Assembly (NCBI RefSeq): GCF_024138125.1
Contig: NZ_CP099993.1
Span: forward strand, 1,488,001-1,552,000
Length of the DNA stretch: 64,000 nucleotides
Direction: 5' to 3'
From: Halorussus salilacus
Lineage (GTDB): Archaea; Halobacteriota; Halobacteria; Halobacteriales; Haladaptataceae
Positions within the stretch are counted from its first letter, which is position 1. The number at the start of each line of letters is the position of its first letter. Below are positions 2,725 through 57,177 of the stretch, piece after piece. The position numbers and the translations under genes were made by a program. The notes under the pieces were generated by a model that was not told the DNA's origin, did not search any database, and was given only the letters and a program-made list of their open reading frames with translations.

Positions 2725-4842
2725 ATGGGAGATTCCGTACCACTCGACCCGCTGTTTTCGCCCGACTCCATCGCGGTCGTCGGCGCGAGTCCCGACTCGT
2801 TCTACTCGGCGAACCTCATCGACAACCTCCTCGACTACGGCTTCGACGGGGAGTTCTACCCGGTCAATCCCAGCAGGGACGAGGCGTGGGGACGGACGTG
2901 CTACGACTCCATCGAAGAGGTGCCCGAGACGGTCGACCTCGTCGTCGTGAGCGTTCCGCGCGAGTACGCCGTCGGCGTGGTCCGCGAGGCGGGCGAACTC
3001 GGCGTCCCGGCCGCGCTCGTCATCACCGCGGGGTTCGCCGAGGCCGACGAGGAAGGCGAGCGCCTCCAGTCGGAACTCGCGGCGGTCGCCGACGAGGAGG
3101 ACATCCGGGTCTGCGGACCCAACTGCATCGGACTGGCGAACGCGGTCGACAGCACCGTGCTGACGAGCACCTGCTCGCGACCGCCGGAACCGGGCTCCAT
3201 CGGACTGGTCAGCCAGTCGGGCGCGCTGGCGTTCACCACCTTCTTCGAGCGCGCGGCCGACGAGGACGTAGACTTCGCGTACCTCGCCTCGACCGGCAAC
3301 GAGGCCGACCTCACGGTGAGCGACTACGTCGAGTACATGGCCGACCAGCCCGAGGTCGAGGTCATCTGCGCGTACGTCGAGGGGCTGGCCGACCCCGACC
3401 GGTTCATGACGGTCGTCGACCGCGCGGTCCGAGAGGGGACCCCCGTGTTGACAATCAAGATCGGCCAGTCCGAGACCGCCGAGGCCGCGACGCTCTCGCA
3501 CACCGGGTCGCTGACCGGCGACGACGCCGCGTGGAACGGCGCGTTCGCCCAGACCGGCGTCGAGCGCGTCCCGGACATCCCCGACCTGCTGGGACGCGCG
3601 AGCGTCCATCAGGCGTTCGACCCGCCCGCGTCGAACCGGGTCGCAATCGCCTCGACGAGCGGCGGGCTGGCGAGCCTGCTCGCCGACATGGCGGCCGAGC
3701 GCGGCCTCGAACTCCCCGACATCGACGGCGAGACCGAGCGCGCGCTCGTCGAACACGACGACCTGCTCACCTTCGGCGAGATGCACAACCCCGCCGACAT
3801 CCGCGGCTACGGCGCCGACGTGTTGCCCGACATCGCCGAGGTGCTGTTCGCCGACGACAGCTTCGACGCCTACGTCTTCGCGCTCGGACTGTCGGCGGTC
3901 GACGAGCGGGCCGACCGCATCGTCCCCGACGTGCTGGAGGTCGCCGAGGGGACCGACGACCCGGTGGTGTTCCTGTGGACCGGCCGCAAGGAGCCCGACG
4001 AACCGACCGACGGCCTCCCCTACGAGCGCGTCCGGGAGGAGATTCCGCTGTTCTACGACCCCGAGCGCTGCATGGACGCGCTCGCCTCGCTCGTGGACTT
4101 CGGCGAGGTCAGAGACCGGGTGAGCGAAAAGCCCTCGCGCTCGGAACTCCGGTCGCGGACTCGCGTCGAGGAGCCGCCGGAACTTCCCCCGGGCGGGGTG
4201 CTGGGCTGGTCGGACGCCGAGTCGCTGCTCGACGAGTACGGCATCGAACCGGTCGAGACCCGACTCGCGACCGACGCCGACGAGGCGGCGGCCATCGCCG
4301 CCGAGGTCGGCTTCCCGGTCGCGATGAAGGTCGATTCGCCCGACCTGCCCCACCGGACCGAGGCGGGTGCGGTCGAGACGGGCATCGACGGGGAGGCGGC
4401 CGCCCGCGAGGCGTTCGAGCGAATCGTCGGGAACGCCCGCGAGTACGCGCCGGACGCCGCAATCGCGGGCGTCCTCGTCCAAGAGCAGGTCGAGGGCGGC
4501 GTCGAGGCGCTGGTCGGGGCCTCGACCGACGAGGTGTTCGGGCCGCTCGTGACCGTCGCGCCGGGCGGGACGCTGGTCGAACTGCTCGACGACCGCGCGG
4601 TCCGAGTTCCCCCGATATCCGGCGACGACGCACGGGAGGCCGTCGAGGCGACGAAGCTCGCGGCGCTCCTCGCGGAGCGCCGCGACGGCCCGCCCATCCC
4701 CGTCGAGCCGCTGGCCGACCTCCTCGAACGCGTCGGCGACCTCGTGGTCGAGAACCCCGAGGTGCGGGAGGTCGACCTCAACCCCGTCATCGTCCGGGAG
4801 GACGGCGCGGCCGTCGTTGACGTGCTCGTCAGGACCGAGTAG
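2725..4842 (+). CDS. acd: ADP-forming acetate/acyl-CoA ligase (fused alpha-beta)
   Basis: 705 aa. Converts acyl-CoA + ADP + Pi to acid + ATP + CoA, or the reverse. Domains in order: CoA-binding Rossmann fold from about residue 10 (IAVVGASPDSFYSANLI), succinyl-CoA synthetase-like domains with CGPNCIG and SQSGAL, the phosphohistidine segment TLSHTGSLTGDDAAW, then a C-terminal ATP-grasp domain (FPVAMKVDSPDLPHRTEAGAV). The alpha-beta fusion is the usual haloarchaeal arrangement. The ATG at 2725 is preferred because the protein then starts directly at the CoA-binding domain and a TATA-like box lies 28 bp upstream; the longer open frame is antisense to the aldo/keto reductase. Confidence 0.92.
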   Translation: MGDSVPLDPLFSPDSIAVVGASPDSFYSANLIDNLLDYGFDGEFYPVNPSRDEAWGRTCYDSIEEVPETVDLVVVSVPREYAVGVVREAGELGVPAALVITAGFAEADEEGERLQSELAAVADEEDIRVCGPNCIGLANAVDSTVLTSTCSRPPEPGSIGLVSQSGALAFTTFFERAADEDVDFAYLASTGNEADLTVSDYVEYMADQPEVEVICAYVEGLADPDRFMTVVDRAVREGTPVLTIKIGQSETAEAATLSHTGSLTGDDAAWNGAFAQTGVERVPDIPDLLGRASVHQAFDPPASNRVAIASTSGGLASLLADMAAERGLELPDIDGETERALVEHDDLLTFGEMHNPADIRGYGADVLPDIAEVLFADDSFDAYVFALGLSAVDERADRIVPDVLEVAEGTDDPVVFLWTGRKEPDEPTDGLPYERVREEIPLFYDPERCMDALASLVDFGEVRDRVSEKPSRSELRSRTRVEEPPELPPGGVLGWSDAESLLDEYGIEPVETRLATDADEAAAIAAEVGFPVAMKVDSPDLPHRTEAGAVETGIDGEAAAREAFERIVGNAREYAPDAAIAGVLVQEQVEGGVEALVGASTDEVFGPLVTVAPGGTLVELLDDRAVRVPPISGDDAREAVEATKLAALLAERRDGPPIPVEPLADLLERVGDLVVENPEVREVDLNPVIVREDGAAVVDVLVRTE

Positions 4843-52413: not shown

Positions 52414-53511
52414 ATGTTCGACAGCCTGAAGGACAAGCTCGGGAGTTTCCGCGAGGACGTGGAGGAGACGACCGAGGAGAAGGCCGAGGAAGCCGAAGCC
52501 GCGGAGGCCGAAACCGAGGAAGCCGAGGCAACCGAAACCCCGGCGGCTTCGGCCGAACGGGACGCCGCGGCGTCCGAGACGAGCGAGCCGGAGGGCGAGG
52601 AGAACGGAGGCGGCTCCGTGAACGGGTTCGCCAAGAAGGCAAAATCGTTCGCGAGGGGCGAGATCGTCATCGAGGAGCAGGACCTCGAAAACCCGCTCTG
52701 GGAGCTGGAGATGGCGCTGTTGGAGAGCGACGTGGAACTCAGCGTCACCAACGAGATCATCGAGAGCATCCGCGAGGACCTCACGGGCGCGACCCGGTCG
52801 TTCAGCGACGAGACCGCCGACGTGGTCGAGCAGGCGCTGGCCGACTCGCTGTTGAAGGTCATCTCGGTCGGCCAGTTCGACTTCGACCGGCGCATCGCCG
52901 AGGCCGACAAGCCGGTCACCATCATCTTCACCGGCGTCAACGGCGTGGGCAAGACGACGACCATCGCGAAGCTCTCGAAGTACCTCGAAGACCGGGGCTA
53001 CTCGACGGTGCTGGCGAACGGCGACACCTACCGCGCGGGTGCCAACGAGCAGATACAGGAGCACGCCGACAACCTCGACAAGAAGCTCATCGCCCACGAG
53101 CAGGGCGGCGACCCCGCGGCGGTCATCTACGACGCCGTCGAGTACGCCGAGTCCCACGACGTGGACGTGGTGCTTGGCGACACCGCGGGTCGGCTCCACA
53201 CCGACGAGGGACTGATGGACCAGTTGGAGAAGATCGGTCGCGTGGTCGGCCCGGACATGGTGCTGTTCGTCGACGAGGCCGTCGCGGGACAGGACGCGGT
53301 CCAGCGCGCCGAGAAGTTCGACGAGGCCGCCGAGATCGACGGCGCGATACTCACGAAGGCCGACGCAGACTCCCAGGGCGGGGCGGCCATCTCCATCGCC
53401 CACGTCACGGGCAAGCCCATCCTCTTCCTCGGCGTCGGGCAGGGCTACGACGACGTAGAGAAGTTCGAGCCCGAGCGGTTGGTCGACAGCCTGCTCGGGG
53501 ACGGGGAGTAG
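52414..53511 (+). CDS. ftsY: Signal recognition particle receptor FtsY
   Basis: 365 aa. Long acidic linker (EEKAEEAEAAEAETEEAEA) at 20-70, then NG domain: GVNGVGKTTTIAKLS (Walker A ~173-181), DTAGRLHTDEGLMD at about 255 and TKADADSQGGAAIS. GTPase that docks the SRP-ribosome complex to the membrane. Seven nt after pfdA. Confidence 0.96.
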   Translation: MFDSLKDKLGSFREDVEETTEEKAEEAEAAEAETEEAEATETPAASAERDAAASETSEPEGEENGGGSVNGFAKKAKSFARGEIVIEEQDLENPLWELEMALLESDVELSVTNEIIESIREDLTGATRSFSDETADVVEQALADSLLKVISVGQFDFDRRIAEADKPVTIIFTGVNGVGKTTTIAKLSKYLEDRGYSTVLANGDTYRAGANEQIQEHADNLDKKLIAHEQGGDPAAVIYDAVEYAESHDVDVVLGDTAGRLHTDEGLMDQLEKIGRVVGPDMVLFVDEAVAGQDAVQRAEKFDEAAEIDGAILTKADADSQGGAAISIAHVTGKPILFLGVGQGYDDVEKFEPERLVDSLLGDGE

Positions 53512-53525
53512 TCGGGCGGGGCGTC

Positions 53526-53915
53526 TCAGAACGCGCCGTCTTCGACGGTCACGTCGGCACGGAGCGACGGTTCGAGCGAGTTGTTGACGTGACAGTATTC
53601 TTCGGCGGCTTCGACGAGAGCCTCGGGGTCGTCGAGGTCCGCCTCGACGGCCAGCGTGAAGGAGGTCGATTCGAGGCCGTCGTCGCTCTGTTCGGCGACT
53701 GCGTCTATCTCGATGCGGCCGACGTCGCGGATACCGTTGCGCTTCGTGGCCATACGGAACGCCGCGAGGAAGCAGGAAGTGTACGTGGTGACGAGCATCT
53801 CGACCGGCGAGGGCGCGTCGGCTCCGCCAGCGTCGATGTGAACCTCGTGGTCGCTGACTGTGGATAGCGTCTTGTACCCCTCGTCCGATTCAGTCGTGAC
53901 TTCGATGTCGGACAT
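53526..53915 (-). CDS. OsmC-family protein
   Basis: 129 aa. Fold residues AGGADAPSPVEMLVTTYTSCFLAAF and EEYCHVNNSLEPSL hold the two Cys of OsmC/Ohr proteins, spaced as in OsmC-type peroxide/ hydroperoxide-stress proteins. Convergent with ftsY. Confidence 0.88.
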   Translation of the reverse strand: MSDIEVTTESDEGYKTLSTVSDHEVHIDAGGADAPSPVEMLVTTYTSCFLAAFRMATKRNGIRDVGRIEIDAVAEQSDDGLESTSFTLAVEADLDDPEALVEAAEEYCHVNNSLEPSLRADVTVEDGAF

Positions 53916-54068
53916 AGTTGTGCGTATTATCCACTATACTGCGAACATTTGAGTCCGTCGACTTCGTCGGGGTCGCGTGACGTGCGAACGTTCGACAGGG
54001 AGAGTTGCGACGCCGGACTGCTCGACGAGGGCCGGGAGGCCCGTCGTTCATCCGGGCGTCACGTCGTC

Positions 54069-54344
54069 CTACCGGTACCAGCGCCGTACCGCCACTAGCC
54101 CGTTCACCGCGGCGAGGACCACGGCGGCGAGTCCGAGCGTGAACAGCTCCACCGGGAGTCCCCGGAAGAGCAACCAGTACGACAGCGAGAGGATGGCGAG
54201 CGCCACCACGATGTTGTAGGTGTCGGTCGCCAGTTCGCCTGCCAGTTCGCCGGGCGACCGTCCTCGGGGTTCGCCCGTCACTTCGGTGCGGTCACCGTTC
54301 GTTGCTACCGAGTCGTTGCGTGCCTTGTTTAAATCGCGTGCCAT
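54069..54344 (-). CDS. Two-helix membrane protein
   Basis: 91 aa from MARDLNKARNDSVATNGDR at 54344. A charged N-terminus, then two helices (YNIVVALAILSLSYWLLF and LFTLGLAAVVLAAVNGLVAV) with a basic end RRWYR. Unknown function. The longer in-frame start at 54401 is possible. Confidence 0.65.
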   Translation of the reverse strand: MARDLNKARNDSVATNGDRTEVTGEPRGRSPGELAGELATDTYNIVVALAILSLSYWLLFRGLPVELFTLGLAAVVLAAVNGLVAVRRWYR

Positions 54345-54596
54345 GCATTGAATGAGGACGGGCGTGGATTTCCGAGGAACCATTATAAGTTTATCGGCCA
54401 CCTTGAAGGAAGGTTGGGTCGCCGACCGTCGTAACGTTTATCGACGGTTGAACCTTCCACGAACGACGAAATCCGGCTCCAAAGGAGACACTTGGCCGTT
54501 CTCGTGAGCGTCGAAAGCGGCTACGGCGCGAACTCCAGCACCGCCGCTACGAAGGGTCTAAAGTTAGAACTAGCCAAGTCATTGGATAGAGAACCC

Positions 54597-54690
54597 GCGC
54601 GGTGCTAGGACACCGCGCAACCGTGATGGGATAGTTCTACTTCTGGTTGCGACGACTAAGTCTGTCTTAGTCTTCGGCTACAGTGTAGCG
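54597..54690 (+). pseudogene. Copy A of hairpin plus decayed mini-gene
   Basis: Hairpin gcgcggtg-ctagga-caccgcgc at 54597-54618 is identical to copy B. It is followed at 54635-54657 by the same 23-bp block (ttctacttctggttgcgacg..) and by cttagtcttcggct. The frame lacks a start codon and diverges afterwards, so this is a degenerate duplicate. Confidence 0.65.
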
Positions 54691-54816
54691 TACATCTCGA
54701 TGATTTATATCTCTTTCGGCGTCATACGAGATTCACGTTAGATGGCGTAATAAAGAAGACTGGGGCATAGAGGCCGCACAGAAGACTTAATAAAAGAATA
54801 GGAGAACCGCACTAAT

Positions 54817-54838
54817 GCGCGGTGCTAGGACACCGCGC
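54817..54838 (+). promoter_or_regulatory. Hairpin copy B, leader of the 50-aa membrane protein gene
   Basis: 8-bp perfect stem with a 6-nt loop (ctagga), 11 nt before the mini-gene ATG. The 54597 copy shares stem and loop exactly. Confidence 0.6.
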
Positions 54839-54849
54839 GTGAGAAGTCG

Positions 54850-55002
54850 ATGATATGGATACTTCTACTTCTGGTTGCGACGACTATCGTCGGTGTTCTT
54901 AGTCTTCGGCTCGTGCCGAAGCGTTGGGACAGCGTTGACGTGAAGGTCAGGCCATGGGGTCTGACCGTGTCGGCGGACAGCGACCCCGAGAACCCCGAGT
55001 AG
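54850..55002 (+). CDS. 50-residue single-helix membrane protein
   Basis: MIWILLLLVATTIVGVLSLR then LVPKRWDSVDVKVRPWGLTV and SADSDPENPE. One N-terminal helix with a charged exterior-like tail; not on usual ORF lists because of its size. Preceded by a hairpin and a plausible promoter; followed by srp54. A decayed relative of its 5' part sits at 54635. Function unknown. Confidence 0.5.
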   Translation: MIWILLLLVATTIVGVLSLRLVPKRWDSVDVKVRPWGLTVSADSDPENPE

Positions 55003-55093
55003 GGCGAGGGGTCTCCGCCTTGGTCGGTTTCACGGGGGCGAGCGACGTTTTCGAGCGATTCGACGGGACCACCCAACTCGCGGGCTAGAAAAA

Positions 55094-55104
55094 GCCTTTA
55101 ACGA
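55094..55104 (+). promoter_or_regulatory. srp54 promoter
   Basis: gcctttaac is centred ~30 bp before the ATG at 55129. Confidence 0.5.
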
Positions 55105-55128
55105 CTACGCGGTCTAACTTCACTAAGA

Positions 55129-56517
55129 ATGGTACTCGACGACTTGGGCAACTCTCTCCGCGACTCCCTCGGCAAACTCAGCGGGCAGTCCCGCGTGACC
55201 GAGGAGGACGTAGAGGAGATTGTCAAGGAGATTCAGCGGTCGCTCCTGCAGGCCGACGTGGAGGTCAGCCTCGTGATGGAGCTTTCGGACTCCATCAAGG
55301 AGCGCGCGCTGGAGGAAGAATCACCTGCCGGAACCTCGGCGCGGGACCACGTCCTCAGCATCGTCTACGAGGAGATGGTCGACCTCGTGGGCGACAGCAC
55401 CGACCTGCCGCTCGAAGAGCAGACCATCCTGCTCGCGGGGCTCCAGGGGTCAGGGAAGACCACCACGTCGGCGAAGATGGCATGGTGGTTCGCCAAGAAG
55501 GGCCTGCGGCCCGCGGTCATCCAGACCGACACCTTCCGGCCCGGCGCGTACGACCAGGCCAAGGAGATGACCGAGCGCGCCGAGGTCGACTTCTACGGCG
55601 ACCCGGACTCCGAGGACCCGGTCGAAATCGCGCGCGAGGGACTGGAAGCCACGAGCGAGGCCGACGTTCACATCGTCGACACCGCGGGTCGCCACGCGCT
55701 CGAAGACGACCTAATCGCCGAAATCGAGGAGATAGAGGGTGTCGTGAACCCCGACCGGAGCCTGCTCGTCCTCGACGCCGCCATCGGGCAGGGCGCGAAA
55801 GACCAGGCCCGCCAGTTCGAGGCGTCCATCGGCATCGACGGCGTCGTCATCACGAAACTCGACGGGACCGCGAAGGGTGGCGGTGCGCTGACCGCGGTCA
55901 ACGAGACCGATTCGTCCATCGCGTTCCTCGGGACCGGCGAGACGGTCCGGGACATCGAGCGCTTCGAACCCTCGGGGTTCATCTCGCGCCTGCTCGGGAT
56001 GGGCGACCTCAAACAGCTCACCGAGCGTGTCGAACGCGCCATGCAGGAGACCCAGGAACAGGAGGAGGACTGGGACCCCGAGGACATGCTGAAGGGCGAG
56101 TTCACCCTGAAGGACATGCGCAGACAGATGCAGGCGATGAACAACATGGGACCGCTCGACCAGGTCATGGACATGATTCCGGGGATGGGTGGCGGTCTGA
56201 TGGACGAACTCCCGGACGACGCGATGGACGTGACTCAGGACCGGATGCGGCGCTTCGAGGTCATCATGGACTCGATGACCGAGGCCGAACTCGAACACCC
56301 CCGCGCAATCGGCGCGAGTCAGGTCGAGCGCATCGCGCGCGGGAGCGGGACCGACGAGGAGACGGTCCGCGAACTCCTCGAACAGCACAAGATGATGTCC
56401 CAGACGCTCAAGCAGTTCCAGGGGATGGGTCAGGGCAACATGGAGCGCATGATGAAGAAGATGCAGGGCGGCGGTGGCGGAGGCGGCGGCATGGGCGGGA
56501 TGGGTCCGTTCGGGTAG
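55129..56517 (+). CDS. srp54: Signal recognition particle SRP54
   Basis: 462 aa. N domain (1-90), GTPase domain with [15 protein letters not shown] (Walker A ~104-112), [12 protein letters not shown] and [15 protein letters not shown], then a Met-rich M domain ([54 protein letters not shown]) for signal-peptide and 7S RNA binding, and a Gly/Met tail. Partner of FtsY at 52414. Confidence 0.97.
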
Positions 56518-56598
56518 TCGACCGGCGGAGTCCACCGAGTTCCGACCCCACGGGCCGACGCATCGCTTTTTTGGTCCGGGAACGCGACGTACCGAGAG

Positions 56599-57177
56599 AT
56601 GTCCGTCCGCGACGTGGCCGAGCGGGCCTACCGCGAAGCCCTCCCGGTGCTGGCGGCGAGTGCGGTCGGCGGCCTGTTCGCGGGGCTCGTCCTCGGCGGC
56701 ATGCAGTCGGACCTCCGGTCGGTCTCCGGCCTGCTCGCGCTCGTTCCCGCGCTGTTGGCGACCCGCGGCAACGTCTACGGCGCGATGGGCGCGAAGCTCT
56801 CGACCGCGCTCCACCAGGGGCTCATCGAGCCCCGTCCCGTGCCCGACGACCGCCGGGTGTACGCCGCGGCGACCGCGGCGATGCTCAACGGGGTCGCAAT
56901 CAGCGTGTTCGCCGCGGTCGTGGCCTACGCGGCGCTGGTCGCGCTCGCTCGCCCCTCGGCCTCGCTCGCGACGCTGGCCGCGGTGGCGCTCGTGGCCGGA
57001 GTCCTCTCCGGTATCGCGCTGACGGTCATCGTCGTCGCGGCCGTCTTCGCGGGCTACCGGCGCGGGCTCGACCCCGACACGCTGGTCGGGCCCGTGGTCA
57101 CGACCACGGGCGACGTGTTCGGGATGGCCGCGCTGCTGGTCGCGGTCCGACTCGTGGTCTCGCTCGGGGGTGGGTAG
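56599..57177 (+). CDS. MgtE/SLC41-type half-size transporter, first subunit
   Basis: 192 aa membrane protein with about five helices. LLALVPALLATRGNVYGAMGAKLSTALHQG is the MgtE divalent-cation transport domain core. Lacks the cytosolic CBS/N domains of bacterial MgtE. Ends directly at the next gene's start: the two half-proteins likely form a heterodimeric Mg2+ carrier. Confidence 0.88.
   Translation: MSVRDVAERAYREALPVLAASAVGGLFAGLVLGGMQSDLRSVSGLLALVPALLATRGNVYGAMGAKLSTALHQGLIEPRPVPDDRRVYAAATAAMLNGVAISVFAAVVAYAALVALARPSASLATLAAVALVAGVLSGIALTVIVVAAVFAGYRRGLDPDTLVGPVVTTTGDVFGMAALLVAVRLVVSLGGG

Follow-up and report, generated by a model that had tools for sequence, protein, structure and literature searches.

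Why should a hairpin be spelled out twice ahead of a gene of only 50 codons, when just one of the two copies leads into a reading frame? The question is raised by a locus upstream of srp54 in a 64,000-nucleotide stretch of the Halorussus salilacus genome (the window). According to the original prediction, hairpin and mini-gene had been copied as one unit, the promoter lying so that the hairpin would form the 5' end of the mRNA, and the proximity of srp54 and ftsY made a link to membrane targeting conceivable. The analysis below distinguishes the following features at this locus, copy 1 being the upstream and copy 2 the downstream copy of the repeat.

54584..54684, minus strand: predicted antisense RNA gene and antitoxin candidate (copy 1), with putative 5' end at about 54684 and 3' end at about 54584; covariance model R1 matches over the full model (window sequence in training set), with covariation and wobble asymmetry
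54597..54618, minus strand: 3' hairpin of the antisense RNA; minus-strand loop UCCUAG, complementary to the mRNA loop CUAGGA
54654..54672, minus strand: 5' hairpin of the antisense RNA, GACTAAG-acaga-CTTAGTC (minus strand), missing from the mRNA copy
54703..54719, minus strand: promoter-like block of the antisense RNA; BRE CCGAAA at 54719-54714, TATA-like TATAAAT at 54709-54703
54785..54794, plus strand: TATA-like element of the toxin-candidate mRNA; predicted transcription start about 54812-54817
54817..54838, plus strand: 5' hairpin of the mRNA, loop CUAGGA
54816..54914, plus strand: mRNA segment pairing with the antisense RNA; predicted 80 bp, longest perfect run 24
54850..55002, plus strand: 50-aa protein, toxin candidate; predicted transmembrane helix 2-20, then a polar tail that may form a beta hairpin (low confidence)

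Anatomy of the repeat

The 22-nt hairpin, GCGCGGTGCTAGGACACCGCGC, occurs at 54597-54618 and again at 54817-54838 with 22 of 22 nucleotides identical, just as the original prediction had it. The 23-bp block described after each hairpin is also there, as part of a longer block of 30 nt in which 29 positions (97%) match (54629-54658 against 54857-54886), and a further element, TCTTAGTCTTCGGCT, agrees in 15 of 15 nt between 54665-54679 and 54897-54911. The spacing between the two copies is 220-232 nt. An ORF with a start codon is present in copy 2 only (54850-55002, 50 aa, with a hydrophobic N-terminus), and a three-frame translation of the copy-1 stretches of ten loci gave no common open frame with a start, which bears out the claim that the open frame is limited to the second copy. 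Searched against the host genome of 3.6 Mb, the 461-base stretch gave a single match at E ≤ 0.001. Since the two-copy layout is conserved at nine loci in seven genomes, six of them besides the window's own, the repeat is not a product of chance.

Two minor observations concern the surroundings. The 3' flank of the ORF (55003..55030, plus strand; GGCGAGGGGTCTCCGCCTTGGTCGG...) looks alike by eye in several paralogues. Between ftsY and srp54 lies a 110-aa ORF (54069-54401, minus strand), by eye a membrane protein, which has no match in Pfam or NCBIfam and whose DNA is similar by eye among several Halorussus relatives.

A conserved small protein

Related genomes, where the original prediction suggested looking, do hold homologues of the 50-aa protein with a conserved frame. 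Used as a query, it found strong matches (E ≤ 2.5e-19) in 7 of 58 other genomes, all of the same genus, and a profile of 12 members (profile A1), run over 18 Halorussus genomes, placed 12 ORF loci in eight of them, with no convincing ORF in the other ten. Eight of these loci lie upstream of srp54, three elsewhere in H. ruber (G015) and one elsewhere in G002. The 12 ORFs encode 48-59 aa, have 19-aa hydropathy maxima of 2.05-2.89, and carry the tail pattern LRxVPxRWxxxDxxV after the N-terminal hydrophobic helix. The ORF is under purifying selection: over the 28 pairs of the eight srp54-locus members, the Nei-Gojobori method gives a mean pN of 0.165 versus a pS of 0.335, with much stronger constraint in the tail (pN 0.078, pS 0.282) than in the helix (pN 0.325, pS 0.413). 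AlphaFold2 predicts a helix at residues 2-20 with fair confidence (pLDDT 82-88), and strands at 29-34 and 37-42 in the tail with low confidence (pLDDT 53-55, pTM 0.35), in line with the earlier description of the product as one helix plus tail. Scans of the 12 members returned no family match in Pfam (best E 0.06) or NCBIfam (best E 0.083).

A hairpin is also found within the coding region (54945-54966, plus strand; GGTCAGGCC-atgg-GGTCTGACC); it recurs in most srp54-locus members and in G015b, and G015c and G002b have hairpins of other spelling near this position. Structure in the coding region is at most weakly unusual, with a negative z in 10 of 12 members by within-ORF permutation but no z < -0.7 against host-codon draws, and the idea of selection on it was set aside. 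In H. ruber, the final 20 codons and the adjoining 3' flank, without the helix part, occur once more about 1 kb downstream of G015c (G015:C3:312529-312588, minus strand). In G002, the srp54 match is split into residues 1-392 and 404-462 (G002:C1:2960479-2961872), so that a frame break or an assembly error is possible.

Copy 1 as a probable antisense RNA gene

If only copy 2 encodes a protein, what is copy 1? Both copies, each with its hairpin, are kept at nine of the 12 ORF loci (G000, G014, G005, G011, G015a, G007, G015c, G002b and G015d), while G002a, as the tenth locus, keeps the non-coding copy and has lost the mRNA leader together with its hairpin. At nine of these ten loci the non-coding copy lies upstream and, taken as a minus-strand unit, faces away from the ORF; the exception is G015d, where it lies downstream and is directed towards the ORF (convergent). 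All seven srp54-locus members with a copy 1 share a minus-strand block, acCaAAA..caTAta, in the same register before its 5' end, where five or more of the seven members agree at 13 of 15 columns, compared with 3 of 45 columns in the remainder of the 60 nt. The block reads CCGAAAGAGATATAAAT in the window, and the elements given for haloarchaea in the consulted part of PMC4983044 are BRE CGAAA and TATA TTWT. A regular expression for it occurs five times on the two strands of the window; the fit is poorer for the corresponding elements of G002b, G015c and G015d. On the mRNA side, a TATA-like YTTAA element (TTTAA at six loci, CTTAA at two) starts 29-31 nt ahead of the hairpin at eight of the nine two-copy loci, the background density of YTTAA in the window being 3.6e-4 per position and strand; G015d has no YTTAA ahead of its hairpin, though it keeps both copies. 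The proposal that the hairpin forms the 5' end of the mRNA is thus probably correct.

The ten putative antisense RNA sequences (alignment A2) fold into two hairpins. In this structure, which was derived from the same sequences, standard pairs fill 98.0% of 149 cells, and 8 of 15 pairs show compensatory changes, that is, changes on both sides. Among 500 shuffles, which keep the kinship between sequences, one reached the observed value on one of five measures and none did on the other four, and six slid versions of the structure all stayed far from the observed pairing. The wobble pairs are distributed asymmetrically, with 16 GU cells on the minus strand versus 2 AC cells; locus by locus, seven speak for the minus strand, none for the plus strand and three are tied, and all five one-strand-only pairs in the copy-1 terminal stems form on the minus strand. 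Since the wobble pairs form there, the minus strand would be the one that is read into RNA. As for the coding-side hairpin, G011 and G002b each have a pair that is possible only on the plus strand, and G015b and an outer pair of G015d show the opposite, with pairing possible only on the minus strand. An Rfam scan of 53000-56600 on both strands returned no matches at E ≤ 5.

Judging from these sequence features, we consider it very probable that copy 1 is a gene for an antisense RNA of about 100 nt on the minus strand, diverging from the ORF. Of the idea that the unit was copied as a whole, the relatedness of the two copies stands, but copy 1 has a promoter-like block and a structure of its own on the minus strand and is more than a copied leader.

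Locus-specific complementarity

The hairpin loop is the same in both copies at nine of nine two-copy loci, and it differs between loci, even inside one genome. Five loop types occur: CTAGGA (four loci), TCCTAG (two), TTGCAG, CTGCAA and CTACAA. Among 362,880 assignments, 48 match throughout, a figure that kinship among the srp54-locus members inflates. CTAGGA and TCCTAG are reverse complements of each other, as are CTGCAA and TTGCAG; the loop is flipped between species in both copies jointly, and the members with a flipped loop, G014, G011 and G010 (TCCTGG), do not form one group on the srp54 tree. Copy 1 is closest to its own copy 2 at seven of nine loci, with G014 and G005 as exceptions, and 1 of 100,000 permutations matched this resemblance, although gene conversion between the repeats could account for part of the within-locus match.

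The duplexes predicted between antisense RNA and mRNA comprise 74-80 bp. Folding energies were computed for 37 °C and standard salt, the haloarchaeal cytoplasm being at molar salt; on this scale, cognate binding at three loci of H. ruber is predicted at -57.0, -48.4 and -18.3 kcal/mol, and the six cross pairs among these loci at -2.4 to -25.8 kcal/mol. For each of the three antisense RNAs, the strongest predicted partner is its own mRNA; with the fourth mRNA of the same genome (G015b), they gave -27.3, -13.2 and -3.3 kcal/mol. Two antisense RNAs of other species are exceptions, that of G005 being predicted to bind more strongly to the G000 mRNA (-36.2) than to its own (-26.3), and that of G014 to the G010 mRNA (-44.3) than to its own (-38.9). 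A sense-sense contact between two palindromic loops was also considered and rejected: it fails for the CTACAA loop of G015d, and is needless with copy 1 on the minus strand.

Scattered presence, losses and putative lone antisense genes

On the srp54 tree, in which 7 of 17 inner branches are well supported, presence of the ORF is scattered, with seven changes, of which at least three are forced by well-supported branches. Presence and absence labels are not clustered (409 of 500 shuffles were as low), and within Halorussus absence is as widespread as presence. With ten of 18 genomes lacking the ORF, and with paralogous loci after serA and a zinc-ribbon-like gene, the link to membrane targeting through srp54 and ftsY was rejected.

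The arrangement is incomplete at three of the 12 ORF loci. G010 has neither the antisense copy nor the YTTAA element, apparently because the sequence flanking its first hairpin has been joined to the second; G002a has lost the toxin leader and retained the antisense gene; and G015b has one hairpin, with no second copy found and no YTTAA, and a TATGTATAG nearby. All eight ORFs with a YTTAA element have an antisense copy; among the four that lack the element, the antisense gene is present in G002a and G015d and absent in G010 and G015b. Though the numbers are small, an antisense gene beside each of the eight YTTAA-bearing ORFs is what one would expect if the protein were harmful.

A covariance model of the antisense RNA, run over the 18 genomes, recovered all ten training loci and, among the matches listed, two further loci away from known ones at E < 1e-3. 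One of them (G007:C4:572581-572677, E 2.3e-9) follows serA (phosphoglycerate dehydrogenase, TIGR01327), which also adjoins the full pairs G015c and G002b. The other (G005:C1:374889-374988, E 1.5e-4) follows a gene of 77 aa, whose zinc-ribbon matches are weak and fall below curated cut-offs, and which also adjoins the full pair G015d. Both keep the two hairpins and, by eye, a promoter-like element; the protein profile found no ORF at either, and no second copy was found nearby. Predicted binding energies did not enter the covariance model. Tried against 11 mRNAs, each lone RNA is predicted to bind best to the mRNAs that other species have at the same position, with -33.2 and -29.5 for the G007 RNA and serA-position mRNAs (others -23.1 or weaker), and -29.8 for the G005 RNA and its same-position mRNA (others -18.2 or weaker). 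Weak antisense matches within the genus, in G003, G016 and G010, showed neither repeat nor likeness.

Relatives beyond the genus

A search of 72,556 plasmid records gave a match in one, pGSL19_54.9 of Halobacterium sp. GSL-19 (NZ_CP070376.1), where ORF 2991-3137 encodes a 49-aa relative (50% identity in alignment A3; tblastn E 1e-3). The PLSDB table, which is incomplete, has no gene at this ORF. Ahead of it lies a hairpin with the loop TCCTAG, a type shared with Halorussus loci, and annotated genes for a capsid protein and an XkdF-like protease lie 2-3 kb away; no second copy of the repeat was found on the plasmid. By eye, a possible cis-antisense promoter, CCGAAAATATGG, follows the ORF on the minus strand. 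The G015d protein as query had no match among plasmids, and the family was not found in viral contigs, by pattern scans, or in phages.

Among 392 genomes of the order, those of Halorussus included, the protein had only weak partial matches outside the genus (best E 3.1e-4, over 23 positions), and a single-sequence match in G056 (E 0.0015) covers 45 residues inside a 192-aa frame. The antisense RNA, searched in 195 genomes of the order, matched 18 genomes of other genera with E ≤ 0.01 (best 7.5e-6); in G039, G120 and G176, neither repeat nor likeness was seen.

A possible type I toxin-antitoxin module

How might these parts work together? A pair of divergent promoters would produce a short mRNA rightward and the antisense RNA of about 100 nt, from copy 1, leftward. 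The mRNA would begin with the hairpin and encode the 50-aa single-helix membrane protein. Since the two RNAs would be copied from direct repeats, one in each direction, the antisense RNA would be complementary to the mRNA in trans over a region that starts at the 5' hairpin, includes the start codon and ends within the codons for the helix. First contact may be made between the complementary loops CUAGGA and UCCUAG, from which the duplex would spread, blocking translation and opening the mRNA to decay. When the antisense RNA became scarce, the protein would be made, enter the membrane, and slow or stop growth. We infer transcription of both RNAs, repression and toxicity from what can be read in the DNA, namely the repeat anatomy, the conserved protein, the minus-strand promoter-like block, the apparently structured antisense RNA and the locus-specific complementarity. 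Given the antisense RNA, we think there is a good chance that the protein is toxic; that the locus is a type I-like toxin-antitoxin module as a whole seems fairly likely.

Type I toxins are small proteins, usually hydrophobic and below 60 aa, a range into which the 12 ORFs (48-59 aa) fall, and an antisense RNA from the opposite strand is predicted at the nine of 12 ORF loci that have both parts. Described type I families in Rfam, Pfam and NCBIfam gave no significant match. The bacterial pairs tisB/istR-1, dinQ/agrB and zorO/orzO are divergent type I systems with a trans-pairing antisense RNA. The candidate resembles them in its small hydrophobic peptide, in the separate antisense gene nearby on the opposite strand, and in complementarity near the 5' part of the toxin mRNA; unlike them, it has archaeal promoters, matched hairpins with locus-specific loops, and a predicted complementarity of 74-80 bp rather than short stretches. 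In Fst/RNAII of plasmid pAD1, which is convergent, oppositely read direct repeats provide the complementarity. The same source of complementarity is proposed here, and G015d is convergent too, whereas the remaining loci are divergent and the protein is without a Pfam or NCBIfam match. In hok/Sok, a toxin of about 50 aa with an N-terminal helix and a polar tail is controlled with loop contacts, and Sok is encoded within the hok leader. Size, protein layout and the proposed loop contacts are similar in the present candidate, but its antisense gene is a separate, diverged copy.

Trans action is attributed to tisB/IstR1 and dinQ/AgrB by name in the consulted passages of PMC8309996. The CreTA module of haloarchaea, as summarized in passages of PMC9458426 and PMC8501985, has a toxic RNA, CreT, repressed through Cascade. 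Like CreTA, the present candidate would be an RNA-controlled toxin module in haloarchaea; unlike CreTA, its candidate toxin is a conserved protein, the ORF being under purifying selection, rather than a small RNA, and its putative antitoxin an antisense RNA. The cyanobacterial pair msoT1/msoA1 was also found from sequence and its toxicity tested in E. coli; its host is a bacterium, and its authors claim that type I pairs had until then been known from Proteobacteria, Firmicutes and Tenericutes only (PMC12390103, 2025). Passages returned by a full-text search of the open-access PMC literature, including PMC12390103, PMC3510493, PMC6523106, PMC8309996 and PMC10767807, describe no archaeal type I toxin-antitoxin system. 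TADB 3.0, in the part consulted, reports predictions of types I to VIII run also on 532 archaeal genomes, and antisense RNAs to type II pairs are reported for Halobacterium in a passage of PMC6523106.

The broader picture, to which we give even chances, is of a first archaeal family of type I modules. A genome would hold several orthogonal versions, their specificity set by a hexanucleotide loop; some species would have lost the module or kept just the antitoxin, and kinship with a plasmid gene near virus genes may point to a role in addiction or against viruses in haloarchaea. If so, antisense-silenced membrane toxins would extend to another domain of life, the question would arise which archaeal nuclease handles such duplexes, and the three natural RNA pairs of H. 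ruber, predicted to be mutually orthogonal, would suit direct tests of loop-based specificity.

Alternative readings

One could also speculate that the antisense mechanism is the same and the protein non-toxic, a regulator or stress protein that does no harm and whose amount is adjusted. The antisense evidence says nothing about toxicity, conservation of the tail is strong (pN 0.078), above that of many very short type I toxins, and G010, G002a and G015b retain the ORF without an intact pair. We nevertheless hold this to be rather unlikely: presence is scattered in close relatives, one genome has four paralogous ORF loci with differing loops, antisense genes are retained without an ORF, and a homologue sits on a plasmid with virus genes, which together form the pattern of addiction or defence modules.

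Alternatively, the locus could be a plain tandem duplication, in which copy 1 is a decaying, functionless pseudo-copy whose similarity is kept by gene conversion. Such conversion would give a loop type common to both copies at each locus, and the frame is indeed lost in copy 1, but a pseudo-copy sits poorly with a minus-strand promoter-like block, a second hairpin in copy 1 only, compensatory changes, wobble asymmetry, and the retention of a lone copy 1 at two syntenic loci, so that we regard this account as very improbable.

A third reading, in which the hairpins act at the level of DNA, as transposon ends, recombination sites or REP-like palindromes, and the ORF is a passenger, is scarcely credible and was rejected. 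In its favour are palindromic arms, a loop orientation flipped between genomes, and recombination between hairpins that may (by eye) have removed sequence in G010 and at the G005 zinc-ribbon-like locus. On the other side, three filled/empty-site alignments, by eye, lack target duplications and terminal repeats, and synteny conserved at three positions, strand-specific wobble pairs and promoter-like blocks speak against it. REP-like, GC-rich palindromes of the form GCGCGGCGC-4 nt-GCGCCGCGC were seen at seven places in G002 and one in G007; their core is unlike that of the hairpin described here.
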